A program made the translations under genes and the position numbers. From NCBI RefSeq assembly GCF_004352845.1, contig NZ_SJRX01000010.1:1-48107 (forward strand): 48,107 nt of DNA, read 5' to 3'. This stretch comes from Luteimonas terricola (lineage in GTDB: Bacteria > Pseudomonadota > Gammaproteobacteria > Xanthomonadales > Xanthomonadaceae). Positions 26,437-48,107 of the stretch are shown here, one piece after another. The stretch's first letter is position 1. Every line of letters begins with the position of its first letter. The notes under the pieces were generated by a model. It did no database searches, was not told where the DNA came from, and saw only the letters and a list, made by a program, of their open reading frames with translations.

Positions 26437-26705
26437 AGCTTTTTTGCCACGGATTTGCGCGCACTTACACGGATAGAGCGAAGAGAAGGAAAAGGCGAAA
26501 AGCGTTTGGCCACGGATTTGCGCGGATGACGCGGATCTGGCTGAGGCAAGGTTGTAGCCGCGAATCCAATTTTGAAAGAAAACTGGTGCAGGGCGCAGTG
26601 GTCGGGCTGCGCCTCGCACTGATCCGCGTCATCCGCGCAAATCCGTGGCCAAAGAAAGCTTTTGCTCTACCCGTGTAAGTCCGCGCAAATCCGTGGCAAA
26701 AAGCT
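26437..26705. repeat. Nested palindromic repeat
   Basis: A 269-bp imperfect palindrome fills the gap between the immunity gene and ctaB. The outer arms are at 26437-26472 and 26671-26705 and the inner arms at 26502-26536 and 26621-26654. Each arm carries the motif GCCACGGATTTGCGCG or a one-base variant, so it occurs twice on each strand. A small hairpin (GGCGCAG with CTGCGCC) lies in the centre. The right end abuts the ctaB stop codon. No gene is supported here. Confidence 0.8.
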
Positions 26706-33805: not shown

Positions 33806-34669
33806 TCAGCCGGCCGCGGGCGCGGCGACGGCGGAAGCGGCCTGCGCGGCCACGGGTGCTGCCTTGGCCTTCTCGGCCTGCAGCCACTGTTCGTACTCGG
33901 GGATCGGCAGCGCGCGCACCACGATCGGCATGAAGCCGTGGTCCTTGCCGCAGAGCTCGGCGCACTGGCCGCGGTAGACGCCGGGCTCGTTGATCTGGGT
34001 CCAGTGCTCGTTGACGATGCCCGGCACGGCGTCCTGCTTCCAGCCCAGCGCCGGCACCCACCAGGAGTGGATGACGTCGTCGGCGGTGATCACGAAGCGG
34101 ATCTTGGTGTCCACGGGCACCACCAGCTCGTTGTCGACGTCGAGCAGGTAGTAGGGATTGGCGGCCAGGCTGGGGCGCTCGCCGCTCTGGCGGATGCGGT
34201 CGCTCTCGCGGTCCATGCGGCTGACGATGGAGACGTCTTCGCCGAGGTAGTCGTACTTCCACATCCACTGGTAGCCGGTGACCTTGACGGTCATGGCGGA
34301 ATCGCGCGTGTCGTACATCGCGACCAGCTTGGTTGTGGCCGGCCAGGCCATGATCACCAGCAGGATCACCGGGATCACCGTCCACACGACTTCGGCCTTG
34401 AGGTTGTGGCTCCACTTGGCCGCCACGGCCCCCTTCGATTTGCGGAAGGCGAAGATCGCGTAGGCCATGGCGCCGAACACGATCACGCTGATGCCCACGC
34501 AGACCCACAGCACAAGCATGTGCGCGTCATAGGCGTTCTGCGACGAGGAGGTCACGCCGGGCGTCATGTTCAGCTGCCACCGCGTCGGGTCGGCGGACTG
34601 CGCCAGGGCCGCCAGGGGCACCGCGGCGACGGCCGCCAGAATCCACCGCAAGAATCGCGCCTGCATCAT
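33806..34669 (-). CDS. ctaC: Cytochrome c oxidase subunit II
   Basis: A 287-residue subunit with a signal peptide ending near A-L-A-Q, two membrane helices and a periplasmic cupredoxin domain carrying the CuA centre. The CuA ligands appear as V-I-H-S-W-W, C-A-E-L-C-G-K-D-H and the following G-F-M. It accepts electrons from cytochrome c. The start is one of two adjacent ATG codons (34669 or 34666). The C-terminal 25 residues are an alanine-rich tail. The gene diverges from putA with 244 bases between; no clear promoter is visible by eye. Confidence 0.96.
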   Translation of the reverse strand: MMQARFLRWILAAVAAVPLAALAQSADPTRWQLNMTPGVTSSSQNAYDAHMLVLWVCVGISVIVFGAMAYAIFAFRKSKGAVAAKWSHNLKAEVVWTVIPVILLVIMAWPATTKLVAMYDTRDSAMTVKVTGYQWMWKYDYLGEDVSIVSRMDRESDRIRQSGERPSLAANPYYLLDVDNELVVPVDTKIRFVITADDVIHSWWVPALGWKQDAVPGIVNEHWTQINEPGVYRGQCAELCGKDHGFMPIVVRALPIPEYEQWLQAEKAKAAPVAAQAASAVAAPAAG

Positions 34670-34913
34670 GCTGCAACCCCAAATGTCGTCGATCGCGGCC
34701 CGGATGGCCGCTTGCTGGAACGGTTGTGGGAGAGCCCTCCCCGTCGGCAGCTTGCCCCCTGGAAGGACCGACCGCACCCCATGCGGGGCGCTCGATCCAT
34801 GTGATGGTAGCGGTCCCCCTACCGGACCGGCAAGCGCGGGCGACGCGTGGCCGCTCCCCCGGACCGCCCTTTCACCCGGTCCGACAGCTAGAATTTGCGT
34901 ACCCCACTCCGTT

Positions 34914-37900
34914 GTGAAGACCGTGCCCGACCTCCCCCTTGGCGACCTGCTGCCGCCCGACCCGCTGCGCGCGGCCATCACCCGACACTGGCTGGCAGAC
35001 GAAGCCACCCGGGTCCGGGCCCTGCTTGACGAAGCCCGCCAGCCGCCCGCCGAGGCCGCCGCCATCGCCGCCACCGCCGCCGACCTGGTGCGCCGGGTGC
35101 GCGCACGGGCGCTCGACCAGGGCGTGGTGGAGTCCTTCATGCGCCAGTACGACCTCGGCAGCGAAGAGGGCGTGCTGCTGATGTGCGTGGCCGAGGCCCT
35201 GCTGCGCATCCCGGACGCGGACACCACCGACAAACTGATCCGCGACAAGCTCGGCGAGGCCGACTGGAAGCGGCACATGGGCCAGTCGGAGTCGGTGCTG
35301 GTGAACGCCTCCACCTGGGGGCTGATGCTCACCGGCCACCTGGTCGACCTGGCCGACGACACCAAGCGCGACGTCCACGGCGCCTTCAAGCGCCTGGCCG
35401 GGCGCGTCGGCGAACCCGTGATCCGGCTGGCGGTGCGCCAGGCGATGAAGATCATGGGCCACCAGTTCGTGATGGGGCAGACCATCGGCGAGGCCCTGTC
35501 GCGCGCGCGCAAGGGCCGCAACGCCAACTACCGCTATTCCTTCGACATGCTCGGCGAGGCGGCGCTCACGCAGCAGGATGCCGACCGCTACCTCGAGGCC
35601 TATCGCAGCGCCATCGACGCCATCGGCCGCGGCGCGGGGCCCTCCGCCGACGAGATCGTCGCACCTTCGATCTCGGTCAAGCTCTCCGCCCTGCATCCGC
35701 GCTACGAGCACGCCAAGCGCGAACGGGTGCTGGCCGAGCTGGCGCCACGGCTGCTCGACCTCGCGCAGCGCGCCAAGGGCCACGGCATCGGCCTGACCGT
35801 CGACGCCGAGGAAGCCGACCGCCTGGAGCTGTCGCTGGACGTGTTCGAGGCCGCCTGGCTCGACGACTCGCTGGCCGGATGGAACGGCCTGGGCATCGTG
35901 GTGCAGGCCTACCAGAAGCGCGCGCCGTTCGTGATCGACTGGACCGCCGGCCTCGCCGGCCGAGGCGGCCGCCGGATCGCGGTGCGCCTGGTCAAGGGCG
36001 CCTACTGGGATGCCGAGATCAAGCGCGCGCAGGTCGAGGGCCAACCCGGCTACCCGGTGTTCACGCGCAAGCCCAACACCGACGTCAGCTACCTCGCCTG
36101 CGCGCGCCGCCTGCTCGACGCCGGCGAGGTGGTGTTCCCGATGTTCGCCACCCACAACGCGCAGACCATCGCCGCCGTGCACCGCCTGGCCGCCGGGCGG
36201 CCATTCGAGTTCCAGAAGCTGCACGGCATGGGCGACGACCTCTACGACGAGGTGATCCCGGCCGACCGCCTCGGCGTGCCCTGCCGCGTGTACGCGCCGG
36301 TGGGCAGCCACGAGGACCTGTTGCCCTATCTGGTGCGGCGCCTGCTCGAGAACGGCGCCAACTCCAGCTTCGTCAACCGCATCACCGACGAGGACGTCGC
36401 GATCGAGGACCTGGTCCGCGACCCGGTCGAGGTCGTGGCCGCGTTCGATCCGATCCCGCACCCCCGCATTCCGCTCCCGGCCGACATGCTCCGCAGCCAG
36501 GGCACCGACAGGACCAATTCCATGGGCATCAACCTCGCCAACGACGACGACCTGCAGAACCTGGCCGCGGCGATCGCCGCCGAGCCCACCGACTGGCAGG
36601 CCGTGCCGCTGGTCCCGGGCGCCACCAGCGCCGCCGACTGGACCGAGGTCACCAGCCCCGCCGACCGCCGCCGCCGCGTCGGCCGCTGGCAGGCCGCCGA
36701 CGCCGCCACCGTGGAGCGCGCGATGGCCAACGCGGTGGCCGCACAGCCGGCCTGGGACGCGACCCCCGTCGCCAGCCGCGCCGCCCTGCTCGAGCACGCC
36801 GCCGACCTGCTGGAGCAGCGCATGCCGCGCTACATGGCGCTGTGCACGATGGAGGCCGGCAAGACCATTCCCGACGGCGTGGCCGAAGTGCGCGAAGCAG
36901 TCGATTTCCTGCGCTACTACGCCGGCCAGGCGCGCGGCATTTCCGCGCCCGAAGCCCTGCCCGGCCCGACCGGCGAAACCAACACCCTGCAGCTGGCCGG
37001 GCGCGGCGTGTTCGCCTGCATCTCGCCGTGGAACTTCCCGCTGGCGATCTTCATCGGCCAGGTCGCCGCGGCCCTGGTCACCGGCAACACCGTGCTGGCC
37101 AAGCCCGCCGAGCAGACCACCCTGGTCGGCTTCGAAGCGGTGAAGCTCCTGCACGAGGCCGGCGTTCCCGAGACAGTGCTGCAGCTCGTGCCCGGCGACG
37201 GTGCCAGCGTGGGCGCCGCGCTGACCGGCGACCCGCGCATCGCCGGCGTGGTGTTCACCGGCTCCAACGGCACCGCGCTTGCGATCAACCGCGCGCTGGC
37301 CGCGCGCGACGGCGCGATCGGCACCCTGATCGCCGAGACCGGCGGCCAGAACGCGATGATCGCCGACTCCTCGGCGCTGCCCGAGCAGCTGATCAAGGAC
37401 GTGATGGCCTCGGCCTTCACCTCCGCCGGCCAGCGCTGCTCGGCCGCGCGCGTGCTGTTCGTGCAGGACGACATCGCCGACAAAGTCATCACCATGCTGG
37501 CCGGCGCGATGGCCGAGCTCAAGGTCGGCGATCCCGGCCAGCTGTCGACCGACGTCGGCCCGGTGATCGATGCCGACGCGCTGGGCATGCTCGACCGCCA
37601 CGCCGAACGCATGCAGGGCGAGGCCCGGCTGATCGCGCAGGCCGCCATGGGGGACGACACGGCGCACGGCACGTTCTTCGCGCCGCGCGCGTGGGAACTG
37701 AAGTCGCTGTCGCAGCTCGACCGCGAGAACTTCGGCCCCGCGCTGCACGTGATCCGCTGGAAGGCCAGCGAGCTCGACCAGGTGATCGACGCCATCAACA
37801 CCACCGGCTACGGCCTGACCCTGGGCATCCACTCGCGCATCGACGAAACCGTCGAGCTGATCGCCGCGCGGGCCCGGGTCGGCAACGTCTACGTCAACCG

Positions 37901-38075
37901 CAACCAGGTCGGCGCGGTGGTGGGGACGCAGCCCTTTGGCGGGCAGCGGCTGTCCGGGACCGGCCCCAAGGCCGGCGGCCCGCACTACCTGCCGCGCTTC
38001 ACCACCGAGAAGGTCGTGACCATCAACACCACCGCCGCCGGTGGCAACGCCTCGCTGCTGACGCTGGGCGACTGA
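34914..38075 (+). CDS. putA: Bifunctional proline dehydrogenase / P5C dehydrogenase
   Basis: A 1053-residue enzyme that oxidises proline to glutamate in two steps. The N-terminal half is the FAD-linked proline dehydrogenase (Y-R-Y-S-F-D-M-L-G-E-A-A near residue 208 and R-L-V-K-G-A-Y-W-D). The C-terminal half is the NAD-dependent aldehyde dehydrogenase with catalytic Cys842 (G-Q-R-C-S) and Glu808 (A-E-T-G-G). Unlike E. coli PutA (about 1320 residues) it has no N-terminal ribbon-helix-helix DNA-binding domain, so it is not its own repressor. The GTG at 34914 is chosen; no Shine-Dalgarno is visible, and a GTG three codons later is possible. Confidence 0.95.
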   Translation: MKTVPDLPLGDLLPPDPLRAAITRHWLADEATRVRALLDEARQPPAEAAAIAATAADLVRRVRARALDQGVVESFMRQYDLGSEEGVLLMCVAEALLRIPDADTTDKLIRDKLGEADWKRHMGQSESVLVNASTWGLMLTGHLVDLADDTKRDVHGAFKRLAGRVGEPVIRLAVRQAMKIMGHQFVMGQTIGEALSRARKGRNANYRYSFDMLGEAALTQQDADRYLEAYRSAIDAIGRGAGPSADEIVAPSISVKLSALHPRYEHAKRERVLAELAPRLLDLAQRAKGHGIGLTVDAEEADRLELSLDVFEAAWLDDSLAGWNGLGIVVQAYQKRAPFVIDWTAGLAGRGGRRIAVRLVKGAYWDAEIKRAQVEGQPGYPVFTRKPNTDVSYLACARRLLDAGEVVFPMFATHNAQTIAAVHRLAAGRPFEFQKLHGMGDDLYDEVIPADRLGVPCRVYAPVGSHEDLLPYLVRRLLENGANSSFVNRITDEDVAIEDLVRDPVEVVAAFDPIPHPRIPLPADMLRSQGTDRTNSMGINLANDDDLQNLAAAIAAEPTDWQAVPLVPGATSAADWTEVTSPADRRRRVGRWQAADAATVERAMANAVAAQPAWDATPVASRAALLEHAADLLEQRMPRYMALCTMEAGKTIPDGVAEVREAVDFLRYYAGQARGISAPEALPGPTGETNTLQLAGRGVFACISPWNFPLAIFIGQVAAALVTGNTVLAKPAEQTTLVGFEAVKLLHEAGVPETVLQLVPGDGASVGAALTGDPRIAGVVFTGSNGTALAINRALAARDGAIGTLIAETGGQNAMIADSSALPEQLIKDVMASAFTSAGQRCSAARVLFVQDDIADKVITMLAGAMAELKVGDPGQLSTDVGPVIDADALGMLDRHAERMQGEARLIAQAAMGDDTAHGTFFAPRAWELKSLSQLDRENFGPALHVIRWKASELDQVIDAINTTGYGLTLGIHSRIDETVELIAARARVGNVYVNRNQVGAVVGTQPFGGQRLSGTGPKAGGPHYLPRFTTEKVVTINTTAAGGNASLLTLGD

Positions 38076-38104
38076 TCCGCACAGCCAGCGGCACGAATGA
38101 AAAA

Positions 38105-38504
38105 GGTTCATCTCCCGACTGAGGGAATGGCGCGCCATTGATGCTCTCGGGCGCCGGGTGCCAAGGCCCTTGAGTGCTCATGTCCCCCGGCGCCGGCCTG
38201 CGGCCAGCGCCTCCTCCTTGACTTCGCTCTCAAGGGCCTTGGCACCCGGTGCGCAGCAATACGCGGTGGCCCCACGAGCAAAGCCGGTGTCCCCGCGCAC
38301 CTGCAGCAACGCCGAGCCCCGTCGTGGCCGGGCGGCCTTCGCGGGGAAGTCAAGGAGGAGGCATCCGCCGCCAGGCGGATGCCGGGGGACATGAGCCGCG
38401 ACGGCCTCCCGGCCGCGGCGGGGCCCTCCAGCTCACGGCGGGGCGTAGCGAAAGAAGCAGACACTCCTCGTCGGAACCGTTTCCCCGGAGATGGGAGATG
38501 AACC
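38105..38504. repeat. Complete MITE-like element, copy A
   Basis: A 400-bp element between putA and fadL, bounded by perfect 12-bp inverted ends, GGTTCATCTCCC (38105-38116) and GGGAGATGAACC (38493-38504). Inside are two long hairpins. The first has a perfect 19-bp stem (38156-38174 with 38229-38247). The second has an imperfect stem built on GGCCGGG and CCCGGCC. Their loops carry the same motif, CTCATGTCCCCCGGC followed by GCCTCCTCCTTGACTTC, in opposite directions. A reverse-complement copy starts at 47767. No transposase is encoded; a 78-codon frame inside is conserved between copies but lacks coding support. Together with the terminator it fills the whole gap between putA and fadL. Confidence 0.85.
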
Positions 38505-38507
38505 AAG

Positions 38508-38535
38508 AAAAAGCCCCGCGTGGGCGGGGCTTTTT
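38508..38535. terminator. Rho-independent terminator of fadL
   Basis: AAAAA, GCCCCGC (38513-38519), a GTGG loop, GCGGGGC (38524-38530) and TTTTT form a classical bidirectional terminator. It lies 20 bases after the fadL stop on the minus strand and directly against the right end of element copy A. Confidence 0.9.
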
Positions 38536-38555
38536 CGTGATCGTGGAAGCGCCGG

Positions 38556-39896
38556 TCAGAACCGGTACTTCGCCGACACGCCGAACAGGTTGGCGTCGCC
38601 GTCGTAGGGACCGGTGATGGTGCTGCCGCCGCTGCTGAAATCGACCTTCGGGTCGTCCGGCTTCAGATGGGTGAAGGCGAAGTCCACTTCCATCGCGTCG
38701 CTGACCGCCCAGGTGGCGCCGATCGAGTACCAGCGGCGATCGTCGTCGGGCAGGCGCGGGGTGCGGTGCTCGATGCTGGTCGGGGTTTCGTCGTGGGCCA
38801 CGCCGCCGCGCAGGATCCAGGCCTCGTTGAGCCTGTACTCGGCGCCGATCGACATGAACGCGGTGTCTTCCCAGCCGAAGGGCTCGACCGAATCCGGGTC
38901 GCCGTTGTCGAACTGGATGCGCACTTCCTCCAGCGACGACCAGCCGGTCTGCGTCCAGTTGGCCATCATCGCGAAGCGGTCGGTGAAGTCGTAGCGGGCG
39001 ACCACGGCCAGGGTCGACGGGGTGGTCAGCTTGGCACCGACACCACCGTTGTTGAACAGCTGGGCGGTGACCGGGTTGCTGTTGAACACCGCGCGCACGT
39101 CGCCGGGCACGGCCCATTCCACGTTGCCGCGGAGCTCGTAGTCGATCTCGGACTGGTAGCTGACGCCCAGCGCCAGGCGGTCGGTCGGCCGGACGTTGAC
39201 GCCGACCAGCCAGCCGAAGCCGGTGTCGTCGCCCTCGACGTCGGCATGGCCGTCACGGGCCTGCGGGACGGCGAAGGGCAGCGGGCGGGTGGCGGGATTG
39301 GAGAACAGCAGGGTGCCGAAGTCGACCGCCTTGGACAGGCTCACGTCGGCCTTGGAGTACACGGCGCCGATGCCGACCGACACGCGGTCGGTGAGGTCCA
39401 GCGCCGCCGACAGCGTCAGGTTCACGATCTGCACATCGGAGGTGTCGGCGAAGTAGCGGCCCTGCCATTCGCGCCCGTACTCGGTCTTCAGGCCGAACGG
39501 CGCGCTGACCATGGCGCCCAGCGCGACGCCGTTGTCGAGCTTGTGGATCACCGAGAACGCCGGGATCGGAGTCACGTCGCCGGCGTTGCCGCCGTTGCCG
39601 CCGGTCAGCGGGCGCCCGAGCGCGTCGGTGCCGGTGCCCTCGAAGGTGTAGCTGAGGTCGATGACCGACAGGTCGGCCTGGACCGTGGTGCCTTCGAAGT
39701 GGGCCATGGTGGCCGGATTGTTGACCACGACCGAGGCGTCGCCTTCATTGACGCCGGAGCCGGCGAATGCCGCGCCGAGGCCCTTGACGCTGTTTTCCTT
39801 GAGCTGGAAGCCCGACGCATGGACCGGGGCCAGGGCCAGCGCGCCGGCAATGCCGAGCGCAAGGGCCGAAGCCTGGAGAAGAGGGGGGGTACGCAT
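38556..39896 (-). CDS. FadL-type outer-membrane transport protein
   Basis: A 446-residue outer-membrane barrel of the FadL/OmpP1/TodX family, which takes up long-chain fatty acids or hydrophobic compounds. The signal peptide ends at V-H-A-S; the mature start S-G-F-Q-L-K-E-N-S-V-K-G-L-G-A-A-F-A-G is the family's N-terminal plug (N-P-A-T-M follows). The chain alternates aromatic and polar residues and ends in phenylalanine (V-S-A-K-Y-R-F). The ATG at 39896 follows AGGAG. The first codons contain seven consecutive C on the coding strand. Confidence 0.9.
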   Translation of the reverse strand: MRTPPLLQASALALGIAGALALAPVHASGFQLKENSVKGLGAAFAGSGVNEGDASVVVNNPATMAHFEGTTVQADLSVIDLSYTFEGTGTDALGRPLTGGNGGNAGDVTPIPAFSVIHKLDNGVALGAMVSAPFGLKTEYGREWQGRYFADTSDVQIVNLTLSAALDLTDRVSVGIGAVYSKADVSLSKAVDFGTLLFSNPATRPLPFAVPQARDGHADVEGDDTGFGWLVGVNVRPTDRLALGVSYQSEIDYELRGNVEWAVPGDVRAVFNSNPVTAQLFNNGGVGAKLTTPSTLAVVARYDFTDRFAMMANWTQTGWSSLEEVRIQFDNGDPDSVEPFGWEDTAFMSIGAEYRLNEAWILRGGVAHDETPTSIEHRTPRLPDDDRRWYSIGATWAVSDAMEVDFAFTHLKPDDPKVDFSSGGSTITGPYDGDANLFGVSAKYRF

Positions 39897-40104
39897 TACT
39901 GGGGGACTCCTGACAAAGTGGCTTGCGGTAGGTGCGCCCGCGGCGGCCGGGCGGTGTGTCCCGCCCTGGTCCACGCGCCGGAAGATTCCCTCCGACCGTG
40001 ACGCCGGCGCACTATACCGTGGCGGATGGTGATGCAGCGGTGTCACGCGTCACGCCCGTCACCGGTTATCTTGGCGCTCCCGGACCCTGGCCCGACCGCC
40101 ACGC

Positions 40105-40797
40105 ATGTTCGTTTCCATCCCGACGCGTTCACGTCCCGCGCTGCGCTGGGCAACGCCGCTGCTGTGCACGACCCTGTGGGCGGTCTACCTGTGGGCCAGC
40201 ACGCGCCCGGAGACGATGGAGCAGGCACTGATGGCGCGCTGGGGCGCGCTCACCGGCGGCCTGGCCCCGGGCGACCTGCTGGCCTCGTGGTCCGACGGCG
40301 AGCGCGGCCTGCGCCTGCTCACCGCGCTGTTCGTGCACGCCGACTGGGCGCACCTGCTCGGCAACCTGGTGTTCCTGCTGATCTTCGGCCTGCCGGCCGA
40401 GCGCGTGATGGGACCGCTGAGGCTGCTCGCCCTGTTCATGGTGGGCGGCGCGGTCGCCAACCTGGCCACGGTGCTCGTGATCGACACCCCCGACCGCCTC
40501 GTGATCGGCGCCAGCGGCGCGGTGTCGGCGCTGATCGGCGCCTATCTCGCGCTGTTCCCCCGCGCCCATCTGGGCGTGGTGCTGCCGCTGGGCCTGTTCC
40601 TCGAGTTCGTGCGCGCGCCGGCCTCGCTGCTGATCGGGATCTGGGCCCTGCTGCAGGTGCTGTTCGCCTATATCGGCCCGGCATTCGGGGCCGTGGCGTG
40701 GTCGGCGCACGCGGTGGGCTTCGTCTTCGGCGCCCTGTTCGCCCTGCTCTCGCGGCGCGCCATCGCGCGCCGCCTGCGCCGCCAGAAGGGTTACTGA
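40105..40797 (+). CDS. Rhomboid family intramembrane serine protease
   Basis: A 230-residue membrane protein with about six helices. The catalytic serine is in G-A-S-G-A-V-S-A and the histidine in S-A-H-A-V-G-F-V-F-G; the N-terminal H-L-L-G-N-L-V-F helix is also conserved. Rhomboids cut membrane-anchored substrates within the bilayer; the substrate is unknown. It diverges from fadL across 208 bases and converges with ctpA; a 7-bp GC hairpin (40797-40818) lies at the junction. Confidence 0.92.
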   Translation: MFVSIPTRSRPALRWATPLLCTTLWAVYLWASTRPETMEQALMARWGALTGGLAPGDLLASWSDGERGLRLLTALFVHADWAHLLGNLVFLLIFGLPAERVMGPLRLLALFMVGGAVANLATVLVIDTPDRLVIGASGAVSALIGAYLALFPRAHLGVVLPLGLFLEFVRAPASLLIGIWALLQVLFAYIGPAFGAVAWSAHAVGFVFGALFALLSRRAIARRLRRQKGY

Positions 40798-40804
40798 GCC
40801 CGGC

Positions 40805-42250
40805 TCACGGCCCGGGCTGCGGCTCTGGTTCGGGTTCCGGTTCCGGCGCCGATTGCGGCGCCGGTCGCGCCTCCGGCGGGACGCAGGAGCCGCCTTCGGC
40901 CAGCCGGCGCAGCACGGCCATGGCGGCCTTGACCGGCTCCTCGCCGGCGAGCACTTCGCCGGGACCATTGTCCTCGTCGCCATCCGCCGCGAGGTGTCCG
41001 CGCAGCGCGGCTTCGCCGAAGACGCCGACGGCTTCGCCCTTGCCGTCGATCACCACGTCGGGTTCGATGCCACGGGCCTGGATGGAGGTGCCGTCGGGCG
41101 TGTAATAACGCGCGGTGGTGAGCTTGACCGCGTCGCCGTTGTCGAGCGGCATCACCGTCTGCACGGAGCCCTTGCCGAAGGTGCGGCTGCCGACGACGCA
41201 GGCGCGACCGTTGTCGCCCAGGGCCCCGGCCAGGACTTCCGAAGCGCTGGCGGAACCGGCGTCGACCAGGACCACCACCGGCCGGCCGCCCATGCGGTCG
41301 CCCGGCGTGGCGCTGAACGCGGTATCGCCGACCTGGATGCGGCCGCGGGTGCTGACGATGCCACCGGTCTCGAGCAGGTCGTCGGCGATCTGCACCGCCG
41401 AGGTGAGCAGGCCGCCGGGGTTGCTGCGCAGGTCGATCAGCAGTCCGCGCAGGCCGGCGCCGCCGGCCTCGGCGTTGAGCCGGTCCAGGGTGTCGCCGAA
41501 GTCCGAGGCGGTGTCGACCTGGAACCCTGCGACGCGCACGTAGCCGAAGCCGGGTTCGCGGATGCTGCCGCGCACGCTGGGCGAGCGGATCACCGCGCGC
41601 GCCACGCGCAGCTCCAGCGGCTCGGCCTCGCCTTCGCGGACGATGGTGACCCCGACCTCGGTGCCCGGCGGCCCGCGCAGCGGCCCACGGCCCTCGTGGC
41701 TGTCCAGCGTCAGGGCCTCGCCGTCCACGGCGACGATCAGGTCGCCGGAGCGGATGCCGGCGCGCTGCGCCGGGCTGTCGTCCATCGGCGCGACCACGCG
41801 CATGCGGCCGTCGGGCAGCTGCATCACCTCCACGCCGATGCCTTCATAGGCGCCGGTCGTGCCCTCCTCGAACGCTTCGGCGTCGCTGCGCTGCAGGTAG
41901 GCGCTGTGCGGGTCGAGGTCCAGCAGCAGGCCGCGGATCGCCGCCTGCATCAGCTCGTGGTCATCGACCTCGTCGACGTGGCCGGCACGCACGGCGTTGA
42001 ACACCAGCACGAAGCGGCTGATCTCCTCCAGCGGTACCGTGCTGGCTGGGGATGCATCGGATTCCTGACGGACCGCTTCGGCCGGGTCGACCGGAGCCTC
42101 GGGTTCGGCCGGGGCGGCATCATCCACCGGCTCCCCGGCATCCTGCGTCGCGGGCGGCGCGTCCTGCGGCGGCTCCGGCGGCACCTCCTGCGCGGCGGCG
42201 GGCAGGACCAGCAGGCTGGCGAGGGCGAGCGTCAACAGGCTGGCGCGCAT
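40805..42250 (-). CDS. ctpA: S41 family C-terminal processing protease
   Basis: A 481-residue periplasmic protease. A signal peptide ends near A-A-A-Q, followed by a proline- and acid-rich linker (to about residue 65). A PDZ domain occupies about residues 140-220 (S-P-A-Q-R-A-G-I-R-S-G-D-L-I). The catalytic serine lies in G-S-A-S-A-S-E near residue 333 and the lysine in S-R-T-F-G-K-G-S-V-Q. The C-terminus is a proline/glutamate repeat (P-E-P-E-P-E). It is the last gene of the gpmI-envC-ctpA run, 82 bases after envC; in several bacteria such proteases work with envelope hydrolases. Confidence 0.93.
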   Translation of the reverse strand: MRASLLTLALASLLVLPAAAQEVPPEPPQDAPPATQDAGEPVDDAAPAEPEAPVDPAEAVRQESDASPASTVPLEEISRFVLVFNAVRAGHVDEVDDHELMQAAIRGLLLDLDPHSAYLQRSDAEAFEEGTTGAYEGIGVEVMQLPDGRMRVVAPMDDSPAQRAGIRSGDLIVAVDGEALTLDSHEGRGPLRGPPGTEVGVTIVREGEAEPLELRVARAVIRSPSVRGSIREPGFGYVRVAGFQVDTASDFGDTLDRLNAEAGGAGLRGLLIDLRSNPGGLLTSAVQIADDLLETGGIVSTRGRIQVGDTAFSATPGDRMGGRPVVVLVDAGSASASEVLAGALGDNGRACVVGSRTFGKGSVQTVMPLDNGDAVKLTTARYYTPDGTSIQARGIEPDVVIDGKGEAVGVFGEAALRGHLAADGDEDNGPGEVLAGEEPVKAAMAVLRRLAEGGSCVPPEARPAPQSAPEPEPEPEPQPGP

Positions 42251-42332
42251 GCGGAACTCCGGTCGGGACAGTGATGGGACAGCGCGCCGCGGCGCGGGTT
42301 CCGATTATGCCGCCCGAGCGCGATGGCGCGGT

Positions 42333-43631
42333 TCAGCGCTTCTGCAGCCAGGCGCCGGGGTCGACCGGCTTGCCTGCGCGGCGCAGCTCGAAATACAGGG
42401 CCGCACGCCCCTGGCCGCCGGAGGTGCCGACGGTGGACACGGCGTCGCCGCGGCGGACGCGGTCGCCGGGACCCTTGAGCAGGCTGTCGTTGTGCGCGTA
42501 CAGGCTCATGTAGCCGTTGCCGTGGTCGATGATCAGGATCAGGCCGTAGCCGGTCATCCATTCCGCGAACACCACCGTGCCCTCGGCGACCGCGGTGACC
42601 GGGGTGCCGGCCGCGGCGGCGACCAGCACGCCCGAACTGCGGCGGCCGTCGGGCATGCGCGCGCCATAGCCGGCCAGCAGGCTGCCGGTCAGCGGCCAGG
42701 ACAGGCCGCCGACCTGCACCGCCGCCGTGCGCGCCACCGCCACCCTGGGCGCGTCCGGCACCGGGCTGCCGGGGGCGGTACCGCCCGGCGTGCCGGTCTC
42801 GCGCCTTGCCGCCGCGGCGCGACGCGCCGCTTCGGCCTTTCGTTCGGCCTCGGCCTTGCGCGCCGCTTCGCGCAGGCGCGCGAGCAGGGTTTCAAGCGAC
42901 TTTGCGTCCGCGCCCAGCGCCTTCTCGCGGTCGCTGCGATCCTGGTAGCGGGCGTCAAGCGCGGCAACCGCCTTGGCACGCTCGCCGCGCTCGCGTTCCA
43001 GCGCGGCGGCCTGTGCGCGCTGGCGCGCGCCGGCTTCGGCCAACGCCGCGCGTTCGTCGGCGATGGACTGCTCCATCGCCTCCAGCCCGGCGAGCTCGTT
43101 CGACAGTTCGGTGATGCGCGCGCTGCGGCCGCGCTGCAGGTAGCCGTGGTAGGCCAGGCTGCGGTTGGCGCTGGCGACGTCGTCCTGCGCCAGCAGCAGC
43201 TTCAAGGGCGCGGCGCCGCCGACGGTGTAGGCCGCGCGCAGCAGGCCCGCGAGCTCGGTGCGCTGCGCCGACATGCTCTCGGCCAGGACGTCGCGCCGCG
43301 CCTCCAGCTCCGCCAGCGCCTGCTGCTGGCGCACCAGTGCGGCCTCGGTTTCGGCCAGCTCGCGGGCGTTGCGGGCCACGCGCTCGTCGGCATCGCGCAG
43401 CGCGCGGCTGGCCTCGCCGCGCTGGCCCTCGATGCGGCGGCGCTCGCGCCCCACCTGGTTGAGTTCGCGCTTGACGTTCTCGAGCCTGCGCTGCGCGTCG
43501 CGGCTGTCCTGCGCCGCCAGCGGGCCGGCCGGAAGCAGCAGCAGCGCCAGCAGCGCCAGCAGCAGGACGAACACCGCGGCCGGTACCGGCACGCGGGAGG
43601 GGCGGCGCAGCCTGGCCGCCGGGGCGCTCAC
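42333..43631 (-). CDS. envC: Murein hydrolase activator EnvC-like
   Basis: A 432-residue periplasmic protein with a signal segment, two long coiled coils (about residues 40-260, heptad-rich) and a C-terminal LytM domain. The zinc ligands of active M23 enzymes are missing: the usual H-x3-D region reads S-S-G-V-L-V and the final H-x-H reads A-L-Y-F-E. That matches EnvC, which activates amidases AmiA/AmiB during cell separation rather than cutting peptidoglycan itself. The GTG start at 43631 overlaps the gpmI stop (GTGA). Confidence 0.9.
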   Translation of the reverse strand: MSAPAARLRRPSRVPVPAAVFVLLLALLALLLLPAGPLAAQDSRDAQRRLENVKRELNQVGRERRRIEGQRGEASRALRDADERVARNARELAETEAALVRQQQALAELEARRDVLAESMSAQRTELAGLLRAAYTVGGAAPLKLLLAQDDVASANRSLAYHGYLQRGRSARITELSNELAGLEAMEQSIADERAALAEAGARQRAQAAALERERGERAKAVAALDARYQDRSDREKALGADAKSLETLLARLREAARKAEAERKAEAARRAAAARRETGTPGGTAPGSPVPDAPRVAVARTAAVQVGGLSWPLTGSLLAGYGARMPDGRRSSGVLVAAAAGTPVTAVAEGTVVFAEWMTGYGLILIIDHGNGYMSLYAHNDSLLKGPGDRVRRGDAVSTVGTSGGQGRAALYFELRRAGKPVDPGAWLQKR

Positions 43632-45205
43632 GCCAGCAGGCTGCTGCCGGTCATCTCCGCCGGCTTCGCCACGCCCAGCAGGTCGAGCATGGTCGGCGCC
43701 AGGTCGCGCAGGGCGCCACCGGCGCGCACGCGCACGCCGCTGCGATGGCCGACGTAGACCAGGTCCACCGGGCCGACGGTGTGCGAAGTATGCGGCTGGC
43801 CGGTCTCCGGGTCGCGCATCATCTCGACATTGCCGTGGTCGGCGGTGACCAGCAGCTCGCCACCCTGCGCGGCGACCGCGGCGGCAACGTCGCCCAGCGC
43901 CTTGTCCACCGCCTCGACGGCCTTGATCGCGGCCTGCAGGTCGCCGGTGTGGCCGACCATGTCGGGATTGGCGAAGTTGCAGACCACGGCGTCGAAGCGG
44001 CCGGAGTCGATCGCGGCGACCAGCTTGGCGGTGACCTCGGGGCAGCTCATCTCCGGCTGCAGGTCGTAGGTCGCGACCTGCGGGCTCGGCACCAGGATGC
44101 GCTCCTCGCCGGCGAACGGCGTCTCGCGGCCGCCGTTGAAGAAGAAGGTGACGTGGGCGTACTTCTCGGTCTCGGCGATGCGCAGCTGGGTGAGGCCGTT
44201 CGCACCCAGCACCTCGCCCAGCGTGTTGCGCAGGTCGTCGGGCGGGAACGCCAGCGGCGCCGGCAGGGTGGCGTCGTATTCGGTCAGGCAGGTGAAGCGC
44301 GCCAGCGCCGGCCGGCGCGCGTCGAAACCGTCGAACGCCGGCGACACGAAGGCGGCGCTGAGCTGGCGCGCGCGGTCGGCGCGGAAGTTCATGAACACCA
44401 CGACGTCGCCGTCGCGCACCGGGCCGGCGCCGGCGATGACGGTGGGCGCCACGAACTCGTCGTTCTCGCCGCGCGCGTAGGCGGCGTCGAGCGCGGCCAT
44501 GGCGTCCGGCGCGTGATGGTCGGATTGTGCTTCGGCGATCGCGTCCCAGGCCCGCTGCACCCGGTCCCAGCGCCGGTCGCGGTCCATGGCGTAATAGCGC
44601 CCGCTCACGCTGGCGATGCACGCGTTCCCCGCCGCGGCGCAGGCGTCGGCCAGTGCGCGCAGGCTGGGGGCGGCCGAGCGCGGCGGCATGTCGCGGCCGT
44701 CGGTGAAGGCATGGACGGCCACGCGCGCCACGCCCTCGCGCCTGGCCAGTTCCAGCATGGCGAACAGGTGCGCCTCGTGGCTGTGCACGCCGCCCGGGGA
44801 CAGCAGGCCCATCACGTGCAGGGTGCCGCCGCCCGCGTTCGCCGCCGCGCACGCCGCGCGCAGTTCGTCGTTGTCGAAAAAGCTGCCCTCGGCGATCGCG
44901 GCGTCGATGCGCGTGAGGTCCTGGTAGACCACGCGCCCGGCGCCGATGTTCATGTGCCCGACCTCGGAGTTGCCCATCTGGCCGTCGGGCAGGCCGACGT
45001 GGGTGCCCTCGGTGTGCACCAGGGCGTGCGGATGGGCGGCGAACAGGCGGCGCCAGTTGGGGATGTCGGCCAGCGCCAGGGCGTTGTCGCGGGGATCGTC
45101 GCGGTGGCCCCAGCCGTCGAGGATCAGCAACACCACCGGCGTGCGGCGGCGGACGGAGACAGGTTCTGGCACGACGTTCGACCCTGTGACGATGGACAGA
45201 TGCAT
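43628..45205 (-). CDS. gpmI: 2,3-bisphosphoglycerate-independent phosphoglycerate mutase
   Basis: A 525-residue alkaline-phosphatase-superfamily enzyme that interconverts 3- and 2-phosphoglycerate in glycolysis. L-L-I-L-D-G-W-G near the N-terminus binds metal, M-G-N-S-E-V-G-H holds the catalytic serine, and V-T-A-D-H-G-N-V-E and H-T-S-H-T-V-G-P supply the second metal site. The ATG at 45205 gives extra N-terminal residues; a GTG at 45172 (514 residues) fits the usual length better. It is coupled to envC and diverges from the repeat-protein gene. Confidence 0.93.
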   Translation of the reverse strand: MHLSIVTGSNVVPEPVSVRRRTPVVLLILDGWGHRDDPRDNALALADIPNWRRLFAAHPHALVHTEGTHVGLPDGQMGNSEVGHMNIGAGRVVYQDLTRIDAAIAEGSFFDNDELRAACAAANAGGGTLHVMGLLSPGGVHSHEAHLFAMLELARREGVARVAVHAFTDGRDMPPRSAAPSLRALADACAAAGNACIASVSGRYYAMDRDRRWDRVQRAWDAIAEAQSDHHAPDAMAALDAAYARGENDEFVAPTVIAGAGPVRDGDVVVFMNFRADRARQLSAAFVSPAFDGFDARRPALARFTCLTEYDATLPAPLAFPPDDLRNTLGEVLGANGLTQLRIAETEKYAHVTFFFNGGRETPFAGEERILVPSPQVATYDLQPEMSCPEVTAKLVAAIDSGRFDAVVCNFANPDMVGHTGDLQAAIKAVEAVDKALGDVAAAVAAQGGELLVTADHGNVEMMRDPETGQPHTSHTVGPVDLVYVGHRSGVRVRAGGALRDLAPTMLDLLGVAKPAEMTGSSLLA

Positions 45206-45234
45206 TGTACCGCCGGCGGGTCCAGACTCGCCCC

Positions 45235-45921
45235 ATGACCAGCATCCGCACCCTTTGTCTCGCCCTGGTGCTCGTTGCCTTCGCGCATGCCGGATCGGCA
45301 CTGGCGGCGGAGGACATCGTGCGCACCAACGGGGCGGTCGCCACCACCGCCGGCGGCAAGTACGACCGCCTGGCGACCACCAACGGCAGCATCCGCCTGG
45401 CCGACGGCGTGACCGCCGGGCCGGCATCGACCGTCAACGGCAGCATCACCGCCGGCAACGACGTCACCGGCGAACGCCTGTCCACGGTCAACGGCAGCAT
45501 CCGCATCGGCGAGCGCGCGCGCATCTCGGGCAGCGTCGAAACCGTGAACGGCAGCGTGCTGATCGATCGCGGCAGCCGGATCGGCGGCGACGTCGGCAAC
45601 GTCAACGGCGCCATGGGCCTGATCGCGACCGAGGTCCTCGGGGACATCGAGATGTCCAATGGCGACCTCACCGTCGGCATCGGTTCGCACGTCCACGGCG
45701 GCGTGCGCGTGCGCAAGGCGGGCAGCAACTGGATGCCGATCCGCGTCAGCACGCGGCGCCAGCGCGTGATCATCGGCCCCGGCGCGGTGGTCGAGGGCCC
45801 GCTTGCGTTCGAGCGCGAGGTGGTGCTGTACGTGCACGACACCGCGCGCATCGGCGAAGTCACCGGCGCGGAGCCGGTGCGCTATTCAACGCCCACCGCG
45901 CCGCCCCGCGGCGAAGACTGA
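45235..45921 (+). CDS. Secreted repeat (beta-solenoid) protein
   Basis: A 228-residue protein with a signal peptide (cleavage after G-S-A-L-A). The mature part has about six copies of an 18-20-residue repeat with the core T-V-N-G-S-I (also T-N-G-S-I, V-N-G-S-V, S-N-G-D-L), each followed by I-x-x-G-x and alternating small and hydrophobic residues. That pattern fits a stacked beta-solenoid; it recalls bactofilin-type proteins but is exported. Function unknown. It diverges from gpmI and precedes the M28 peptidase gene by 70 bases. Confidence 0.7.
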   Translation: MTSIRTLCLALVLVAFAHAGSALAAEDIVRTNGAVATTAGGKYDRLATTNGSIRLADGVTAGPASTVNGSITAGNDVTGERLSTVNGSIRIGERARISGSVETVNGSVLIDRGSRIGGDVGNVNGAMGLIATEVLGDIEMSNGDLTVGIGSHVHGGVRVRKAGSNWMPIRVSTRRQRVIIGPGAVVEGPLAFEREVVLYVHDTARIGEVTGAEPVRYSTPTAPPRGED

Positions 45922-45991
45922 CGCCCCCCGCGCCCCGCCCGGGCGCCGAACGCATAGAATCGGGGATTCCCCAGACGCAGGACCCGAACGA

Positions 45992-47683
45992 ATGCGACCA
46001 ACCCACCTCGTGCTCAGCCTCGCCGTCACCGCGGTGCTGGCTGCATGCAGCGGCGAGCCCGCACCCGCCAACGGCGGCACCCAGTCCACGGCCGCCACCA
46101 GCCACGCCTTCAGCCCCGAGCTGGACAAGAGCGACTTCGCCGAAATGGTGCGGACGTTGTCCTCCGACGAATTCGAGGGTCGCGCGCCCGGCTCGCCCGG
46201 CGGCGAGATGACCGTCGAGTACATCAAGGCCCAGTACGAGCGCATCGGGCTCGCGCCCGGCGGCGACGACGGCACCTTCTTCCAGACCGTGCCGATGGTC
46301 GAGACCACCGCGGACGAATCCACCGTCCTGCGCATGGACGTGGCCGGCAAGGCCGGCGAGCTGCAGTTCGGCACCGACATGGTGATCGGCACCCGCACCG
46401 GCGAGACCGAAGTCAAGGTCGCCGACAGCGACCTGGTGTTCGTCGGTTACGGCGTCGACGCGCCGGAGCTGGGCTGGAACGACTACGCCGGCATCGACGT
46501 CAAGGGCAAGACCGTGGTCATCCTGGTCAACGACCCGGGCTTCCACGCCAACGACGAGACGCTGTTCGAAGGCGAGCGCATGACCTATTACGGGCGCTGG
46601 ACCTACAAGTTCGAAGAGGCCGCGCGCAAGGGCGCCGCCGCCGCGCTGATCATCCACGACACGGCCGGCGCTTCCTACGGCTGGGACGTGGTGAAGAACT
46701 CCTGGTCCGGCCCGCAGTTCGACCTGCGCGCCTCCGACGATCCGGAGCCGCGCCTGCCGGCCCAGGGCTGGCTGAGCGCCGAGGCCGCGACGCAGCTCTT
46801 TGCCGATGCCGGCCAGGACCTCGAGGCGCTGTACACCGCCGCCAACCAGCGCGGCTTCAGCGCCGTCCCGCTGGACGCGCGCGTGTCCTTCGACCTCGCC
46901 AGCAGCACCCGCGAGAGCTCGTCGCGCAACGTCATCGGCGTCCTGCGCGGCAGCGAGGCGCCGGACGAGGCCATCGTCTACATGGGCCACTGGGACCACC
47001 TCGGCAAGCACGAAGGCGAGGGCGACACGATCTACAACGGCGCCATCGACAACGCCACCGGCATCGCCGGCATCATCGAGATCGCGGAGAAGTTCCAGGC
47101 GGACGGCCAGCCGAAGCGCTCGATCGCCTTCGTCGCCGTGACCCTGGAGGAGTCCGGCCTGCTGGGCTCGAAGTACCAGGTTGCGCACCCGGCGTTCCCG
47201 CTGGAGAACACCGTGGCGGTGGTGAACCTCGACGCCATGAGCGTGGCCGGTCCGTCGCGCGACATGGTGGTGGTCGGCAAGGGCAACTCCGAGCTGGAGG
47301 ACGTGCTCAAGACCTTCACCGACGCCCAGGACCGCACCATCGTGAGCGAAGGCAACCCGGCCGGCGGCTTCTTCTTCCGCTCCGACCACTTCAACTACGC
47401 CAAGGCCGGCGTGCCCGCGCTGTACGCCAAGGGCGGCGACGATCTGCTCGACGGCGGCCCGGAGGCCGGTACGGCGTATGCGAAGCACTACACCGAGGTC
47501 GCGTACCACAAGCCGGCGGACGAGTTCGATCCGTCGTGGAACCTCGACGGTGTGATCCAGGACCTCGAGGTGCTCTACGGCGTCGGCCGCACCCTGGCCG
47601 ACGACGGCAGCTGGCCGAACTGGTACGAAGGCAACGCCTTCAAGGCCGCGCGTGACGACATGCGCGCGGGCAGCGGCGACTGA
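45992..47683 (+). CDS. M28 family lipoprotein peptidase
   Basis: A 563-residue lipoprotein (lipobox L-A-A-C near residue 19) with a PA-like insert in the N-terminal half (about residues 120-290) and an M28 zinc aminopeptidase domain at the C-terminus. The zinc ligands can be followed as M-G-H-W-D-H-L-G, G-A-I-D-N-A-T-G, E-E-S-G, N-L-D-A-M-S and R-S-D-H-F-N-Y. It would be anchored to the outer membrane and trim peptides for uptake. The ATG at 45992 is the start; a strong terminator follows. Confidence 0.92.
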   Translation: MRPTHLVLSLAVTAVLAACSGEPAPANGGTQSTAATSHAFSPELDKSDFAEMVRTLSSDEFEGRAPGSPGGEMTVEYIKAQYERIGLAPGGDDGTFFQTVPMVETTADESTVLRMDVAGKAGELQFGTDMVIGTRTGETEVKVADSDLVFVGYGVDAPELGWNDYAGIDVKGKTVVILVNDPGFHANDETLFEGERMTYYGRWTYKFEEAARKGAAAALIIHDTAGASYGWDVVKNSWSGPQFDLRASDDPEPRLPAQGWLSAEAATQLFADAGQDLEALYTAANQRGFSAVPLDARVSFDLASSTRESSSRNVIGVLRGSEAPDEAIVYMGHWDHLGKHEGEGDTIYNGAIDNATGIAGIIEIAEKFQADGQPKRSIAFVAVTLEESGLLGSKYQVAHPAFPLENTVAVVNLDAMSVAGPSRDMVVVGKGNSELEDVLKTFTDAQDRTIVSEGNPAGGFFFRSDHFNYAKAGVPALYAKGGDDLLDGGPEAGTAYAKHYTEVAYHKPADEFDPSWNLDGVIQDLEVLYGVGRTLADDGSWPNWYEGNAFKAARDDMRAGSGD

Positions 47684-47733
47684 TTGCCGGGCGGCCGGAT
47701 GGCGGCAGCGCCATTCCGGTCCGGGTTTTCATG

Positions 47734-47764
47734 ATGACGGCGCCTTCGAGGCGCCGTCATTTTT
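47734..47764 (+). terminator. Rho-independent terminator of the M28 peptidase gene
   Basis: ATGACGGCGCC (47734-47744), a TTCGA loop, GGCGCCGTCAT (47750-47760) and TTTT form a perfect 11-bp terminator. Three bases later the left end of element copy B begins. Confidence 0.9.
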
Positions 47765-47766
47765 CA

Positions 47767-48107
47767 GGTTCATCTCCCAGGTCCGGGGAAGCGGTTCCGA
47801 CGAGGAGTGTCTGCTTCCTTCGCCATGCTTCGTCGTGACCGTGAGGGGCCCCGTCGCGGCCGGGAGGCCTTCGCGGCTCATGTCCTCCGGCATCCGCCTG
47901 GCGGCGGATGCCTCCACCTTGACTTCCCCGCGAAGGCCTCCCGGCCCCGGCGGGGCTCGGCGTTGCTGCAGGTGCGCGGGGACACCGGCTTTGCTCCTGG
48001 GGCCACCGCGTATTGCTGCGCACCGGGTGCCACGGCCCTTGAGAGCGAAGTCAAGGTGGAGGCGATGGCCGCAGGCCAGCGCCGGGGGACATGAGCACTC
48101 AAGGGCC
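47767..48107. repeat. MITE-like element, copy B (cut by window end)
   Basis: Begins with GGTTCATCTCCC (47767-47778) and runs as the reverse complement of copy A to the end of the window, where about 61 bases of the expected element are missing. Its hairpin has a perfect 19-bp stem (47858-47876 with 47928-47946), whereas the matching stem in copy A has two mismatches. The shared motifs CTCATGTCC-Y-CCGGC and CTTGACTTC are present. No gene is supported in 47684-48107 apart from the terminator. Confidence 0.85.

Follow-up and report, generated by a model that had tools for sequence, protein, structure and literature searches.

The window, the whole 48,107-nucleotide stretch of Luteimonas terricola DNA analysed here, raises the question of why two inverted copies of a repeat of about 400 bp should each lie directly behind a terminator. 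A sequence-only reading of the window had offered two answers: that such sites are preferred for insertion, or that the repeats have a role in 3' ends at the RNA level. The former is favoured here: we put a rough probability of 0.86 on the repeats being a non-autonomous MITE derivative of an ISL3 insertion sequence that moved into the T-tracts of predicted terminators, with a hairpin-pair interior that was likely captured.

Copy A is a 400-bp element at 38105-38504 on the minus strand, which has the same sense as copy B, found on the plus strand at 47767-48107. Copy B is ended by the contig end (contig C19 stops at 48107), and its right end lies beyond. As first described, the two copies are reverse complements, with 92.7% identity over 341 bases; the 12-bp inverted ends of copy A are perfect (GGTTCATCTCCC/GGGAGATGAACC), and no transposase-sized open reading frame is found inside, the longest one listed within copy A being 132 aa. 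The terminal inverted repeat at 38105-38116 (plus strand) is of the right-end type of the insertion sequences described below and continues into ...ACTGAGGGA, while that at 38493-38504 (minus strand) is of the left-end type, continues into ...TCCGGGGAA and adjoins the fadL terminator. The left-end repeat of copy B lies at 47767-47778 (plus strand). Inside copy A, a hairpin-pair unit spans 38148-38436, with loop cores near 38176-38225 and 38346-38396; its edges are approximate, having been placed from copies in another genome, G036.

Both copies sit right at a hairpin's T-tract, again as claimed. For copy A, this is the hairpin at 38508-38535 (minus strand; AAAAAGCCCCGC/GCGGGGCTTTTT; flank energy -19.2 kcal/mol), which ends a fadL-type gene (PF03349; 38556-40046, minus strand, putative start codon), and a putA-type gene (34566-38075, plus strand) lies on the other side of the element. 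For copy B, it is the hairpin at 47735-47759 (plus strand; T-tract 47760-47764; flank energy -23.5 kcal/mol) behind an M28 peptidase gene (PF04389; 45803-47683, plus strand, putative start codon). The terminator-side copy of the target duplication of copy A (38505-38512) is the T-tract TTTTTCTT on the minus strand, and the distal copy (38097-38104) matches it at 7 of 8 bases. Neither the fadL nor the M28 terminator was listed by a consensus terminator scan; in our reading, the paired A/T tracts at copy A were counted as stem, and the T-tract at copy B was shortened by the element. A comparison of window positions 37900-38700 with Rfam gave 11 matches up to E 1, none of which reached the gathering score.

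Complete or partial copies of the element are found at 50 places in the host genome (3,039,636 bases, 20 contigs), a few of which may be the two halves of one copy; one of the 50 is a 137-bp variant that was found via its ends alone and added by hand. The assembly was evidently broken by the repeat, since 13 of these places, copy B included, are at contig ends (C1, C2, C6, C11-C17, C19 and C20). Many copies, with the transposase gene absent inside, are what an ISL3-derived MITE would be expected to leave. Two pairs of copies on different contigs (L004/L006 and L008/L023) each have one flank in common, a sign that copies may have recombined or flanks been duplicated. L030 was considered as a free hairpin unit in this genome and rejected, as the MITE remnant beside it marks it as a decayed MITE. 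The window also contains, at 26441-26702, nested inverted repeats of the type CACGGATTTGCGCGGAT, with arms of 42-43 nt that are 91-93% complementary; letters like these also appear next to elements L031, L038 and L046, and the repeats look like another repeat family of the genome.

The ends of the element point to its origin. ISL3 transposases were sought with the profile PF01610: none was found in the host genome. Of the 52 genomes of the genus, a set in which the host is counted, 18 gave a match above the cut-off. A search by eye in the host for an autonomous partner, in the form of inverted ends spaced 0.6-3 kb apart, also found none. Complete insertion sequences of 1308-1310 bp, each with two different ends, are found in G029, G002, G067 and G005; the G029 one, 1309 bp overall, has GGTTCATCTCCC and GGTTCTTCTCCC on either side of its ISL3 gene. 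The ends of these insertion sequences are unlike each other beyond the terminal repeat (...TCCGGGGAA on the left, ...ACTGAGGGA on the right), and the 400-bp element has one of each. Copy A and the G029 copy are identical at 22 of 24 and 20 of 22 end bases, and thus the element has both its left and its right end in common with an ISL3-family insertion sequence. The 407-aa transposase of the sister species contains three ISL3 Pfam domains and matches the NCBI ISL3 equivalog model; no solved structure matched it by sequence. The ISL3 elements in L085, L086 and L107 were tried as parents and rejected, as they are without the element's ends. Because its ends match those of an ISL3 insertion sequence while the host is without an ISL3 transposase, the element is best described as a MITE-type ISL3 derivative. 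As this transposase was undetected in the host, the family is probably immobile there and its copies are probably relics.

Relatives are carried on plasmids of Xanthomonas sacchari (86.5%) and Cupriavidus (about 53-63%); no plasmid DNA similar to the 400-bp element was found. Six plasmid relatives were fetched, of which five have clear ends and the sixth gave no ends by script. All five are flanked by an exact 8-bp A/T-rich duplication, and four of the five adjoin a hairpin, as judged by eye. On the X. sacchari plasmid (L361), a head-to-tail pair of ISL3 copies is separated by eight As, the arrangement that would result if one copy had used the other's target run as its own insertion site.

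ISL3 elements are characterized by an 8-bp target duplication together with ISL3 end letters. When the flanks of the host copies were compared at lengths of 5-12, their identity rose above that of shuffled flanks at length 8 only (0.673 versus 0.586, with 0 of 2000 shuffles reaching 0.673). The 8-bp duplication of an ISL3-derived MITE is therefore present in the family, but it is exact in only 2 of 21 copies, with an exact 9-bp duplication in 1 of 21. Such scarcity is as expected of old copies, and in the G029 insertion sequence the 8-bp duplication is exact.

Placement behind terminators extends across the genome. With a strong hairpin taken as one of -14 kcal/mol or better in the flank, such hairpins are found in 28 of 36 T-side flanks but only 6 of 30 flanks on the other side, and in the background at 2 of 23 runs of at least five Ts and 298 of 1500 random sites. 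In a second background, consisting of 400 kb elsewhere in the genome that was hand-picked and element-free, a strong hairpin accompanies 12 of 56 runs of at least five Ts, coding and non-coding pooled, versus 24 of 28 element ends with such a run (Fisher p about 2e-8). In the window outside the elements, 17 sites have at least six Ts in eight bases, one of them with a strong hairpin. Copies genome-wide are therefore not random relative to terminators and prefer the T-tract behind a hairpin, which upholds the association proposed from copies A and B. A T-tract on one side is paired with an A-tract on the other in 18 of the 21 copies with both ends, as expected for insertion within a run of Ts; the three that are missing a clear A-tract are L009, where that end is truncated, and L008 and L023, which have one diverged flank in common. 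An open reading frame ends at 28 of 36 T sides versus 15 of 27 A sides, a contrast that is weak because chance reading frames are frequent in GC-rich DNA. Across other Luteimonas, in a set of ends that includes a few chance pattern hits and 4 unclassified ends, a strong hairpin adjoins 21 of 24 T-side ends versus 5 of 20 A-side ends. A rough extrapolation from a non-random sample of 6 sites (about 46 unoccupied terminators at -17 kcal/mol versus 23 occupied ends) suggests that around one-third of the strongest T-tract terminators are occupied. We infer that the hairpins at target sites would truly end transcription.

A hairpin is not required at the target, however, since 8 of 36 T-side flanks are without a strong one, as are the targets of the G029 insertion sequence (CAACTTTT) and of the one in C. 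taiwanensis. These exceptions, the hairpin-less T-rich targets L081 and L364 included, are what would be seen if the transposase favoured T-rich octamers alone and the terminator link were the residue left after the loss of insertions into genes and promoters. The T-tract is indeed the common denominator, and this account is possible, although we consider it the less probable one: hairpins are far more common at insertion sites than at T-runs generally, as the second background shows, and one and the same fadL terminator was struck independently in two species.

That case comes from orthologous sites, for which 8 of 30 listed loci were read per copy. Nothing recognisable lies behind the fadL terminator in five of the eight (G036, G018, G003, G061 and G007). 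In G015, the same terminator is followed at the same place by a different element, with the other end on the hairpin side and an unrelated interior; the terminator was thus hit independently in each species. In G071, the site contains a 30-39 bp piece that resembles the spacer of the hairpin unit by BLAST, and in G072 a hairpin pair of the type found in G003 follows the T-tract, with no recognisable ISL3 ends. A BLAST of the element and the G036 unit against 29 fadL loci gave three matches (G071, G072 and G065). The M28 site is element-free in all eight loci read, and BLAST at 29 M28 loci gave a single weak match of 38 bp. A preferred insertion site, one of the two explanations first offered, is borne out by the hairpin T-tracts, the 8-bp duplication, the element-free orthologous sites and the complete insertion sequences at like targets. 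Two further observations were made in these genomes. A GTAGGAGCAGCTACAGCTGCGACC-type palindrome, which we take to resemble a GTAG-class REP, follows the fadL terminator in L262 (G018) and L263 (G003). L331 (G003) is a 121-bp element with terminator-type flanks on both sides, each T-tract facing the element.

Orientation bears on the other explanation. Copies A and B do lie in the same orientation relative to the gene whose terminator they follow, but this part of the earlier description does not hold generally: the left end is on the terminator side in 20 resolved copies and the right end in 16, so orientation relative to the gene is not fixed. Either end can therefore face the terminator, and unrelated interiors are found at like sites, both of which speak against an RNA-level role as the reason for placement.

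The interior itself consists of two extended hairpins in opposed order, set between the ISL3 ends. In each, an internal loop with TCAAGGAGGAGG and CCGGGGGACAT sides is conserved, and the outer stem and the inner hairpin vary. Folding of the entire element gives a z of -8.2 as RNA and -6.8 as DNA, and 0 of 100 shuffles are equally stable. In a set of 136 distinct modules, pairing between the outer arms reaches 16.5 of 20 positions, versus 11.2 when arms are swapped between modules, the best of 64 registers being taken for both real and swapped arms. Other Luteimonas have like ISL3 ends around other strongly folding interiors, with a z of -9.7 in G015 and -11.6 in G005; L319-L326 (G015) and L327 (G005) are elements of about 400-620 bp with other hairpin interiors and, by eye, a common CATCCATG motif. 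The very stable fold, the covarying stems and the fact that every species-specific interior examined folds strongly would all suit an RNA-level element that is kept behind terminators, where its hairpins back up termination or shield mRNA 3' ends. We regard this as very unlikely, since the upstream terminator is left whole and complete insertion sequences with a transposase gene occupy the same sites; the use of either end on the terminator side also counts against it, although with a near-symmetric interior this is not decisive.

The hairpin module is dispersed well beyond Luteimonas. When genome contigs were scanned for the loop, at least 118 stretches were obtained. The 80 titled matches listed are mostly from Burkholderiales (Variovorax, Hydrogenophaga, Rhodoferax, Rubrivivax and others), with several from Lysobacteraceae and one titled Bacillus subtilis, perhaps from a mislabelled or contaminated assembly. 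Among the 118 matches listed, 51 of 55 neighbouring module pairs are in the same opposed order, and in 49 of these 51 the starts are 133-173 bases apart. In the sister species G036, the hairpin-pair unit occurs at ten places with unrelated flanks, no ISL3 ends and edges at the outer stems; at L374, which is among these ten, the first module stands alone. An alignment of six Variovorax copies (L120, L131, L149, L165, L181 and L185) gives the unit short inverted ends, TTCAGGGCG/CGCCCTGAA, which are exact in four and altered in two.

A REPIN is marked by two palindromes that are inverted relative to each other and separated by a spacer, as they are in the interior here, and the constancy of the opposed order and the dispersal without ISL3 ends in G036 would both follow if the 400-bp element were a REPIN mobilised by a RAYT (Y1_Tnp) enzyme. 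This is hardly credible here. The 400-bp unit is bounded by ISL3-type ends and an 8-bp duplication; no Y1_Tnp match was found in the host genome (G000) or in G036, and the module, at up to two mismatches, is present in 0 of 52 RAYT loci searched with about 1.5 kb on each side. We infer capture of the pair by an ISL3 element, and not shedding by one or origin inside it.

In the preferred reading of an ISL3-derived MITE, an ISL3 transposase would likely have acted in trans on the element, by cut-and-paste, with the T-tract of a predicted intrinsic terminator as its target and an 8-bp duplication as the result. The absence of the enzyme from the host genome counts against this action in trans. 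The transposase would read the T-tract itself, and the hairpin would be a helper or the residue of selection against other sites. The opposed hairpin pair would have been taken up as cargo. A more ambitious version, which we offer tentatively and think rather unlikely, is that this ISL3 clade is a dedicated terminator-targeting system whose MITEs carry unnamed paired internal-loop hairpins that also move by themselves, without a RAYT, in Burkholderiales and Lysobacteraceae. The cargo would then have a selected role, for example as a binding site for a strand-specific enzyme, because the hairpin pairs set between the same ISL3 ends differ from one Luteimonas species to another.

The analysis supplies a target rule for a group of ISL3 elements, namely the T-tract of a terminator. 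Should the rule be true, it predicts landing sites, may explain harmless persistence at gene ends, and makes the elements of this group candidate insertion tools at 3' ends. It also describes a structured, widely dispersed hairpin-pair repeat for which no name or mobilising enzyme was found and which is apparently carried here by ISL3 ends. Among the literature matches listed, none described the element, the loop sequence or a rule by which ISL3 targets terminators. MITEs and ISL3 elements belong to known kinds; the terminator rule and the hairpin pair were not found in print among those matches.

Several known systems can be set beside these repeats. IS1182/IS1272-type elements and group IIC introns insert at terminator hairpin regions, using other enzymes and other ends than those here. 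Like MITEs derived from insertion sequences, the element has the inverted ends and the left and right signatures of a complete insertion sequence, no gene, many copies and one duplication length; it differs in its target, a terminator T-tract, and in its interior, which is a hairpin-pair repeat also found outside ISL3 ends and not a shrunken transposase gene. With ISL3-family insertion sequences, such as the ISRta1-like copy of Cupriavidus taiwanensis, it shares ends that begin GGTTC and 8-bp duplications of T/A runs, but such a transposase gene is absent from the host genome. REPINs and BIMEs, as described in the accessible part of PMC3116915, likewise consist of a pair of hairpins, inverted relative to each other across a spacer, and are dispersed between genes; the hairpins here are longer, have a conserved internal loop and showed no RAYT linkage. 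The nearest printed case found is in Enterococcus faecium, where the available portion of PMC11702846 describes an insertion, linked to ISL3 and accompanied by an 8-bp duplication, in a putative rho-independent rRNA terminator; in that portion, the authors claim no target rule. That case is a single rearrangement from another phylum, and it disrupts the terminator at about its midpoint, but, as far as the same portion goes, it resembles the repeats described here in its insertion at a terminator, in the 8-bp duplication and in the ISL3 element that lies at one of its ends.
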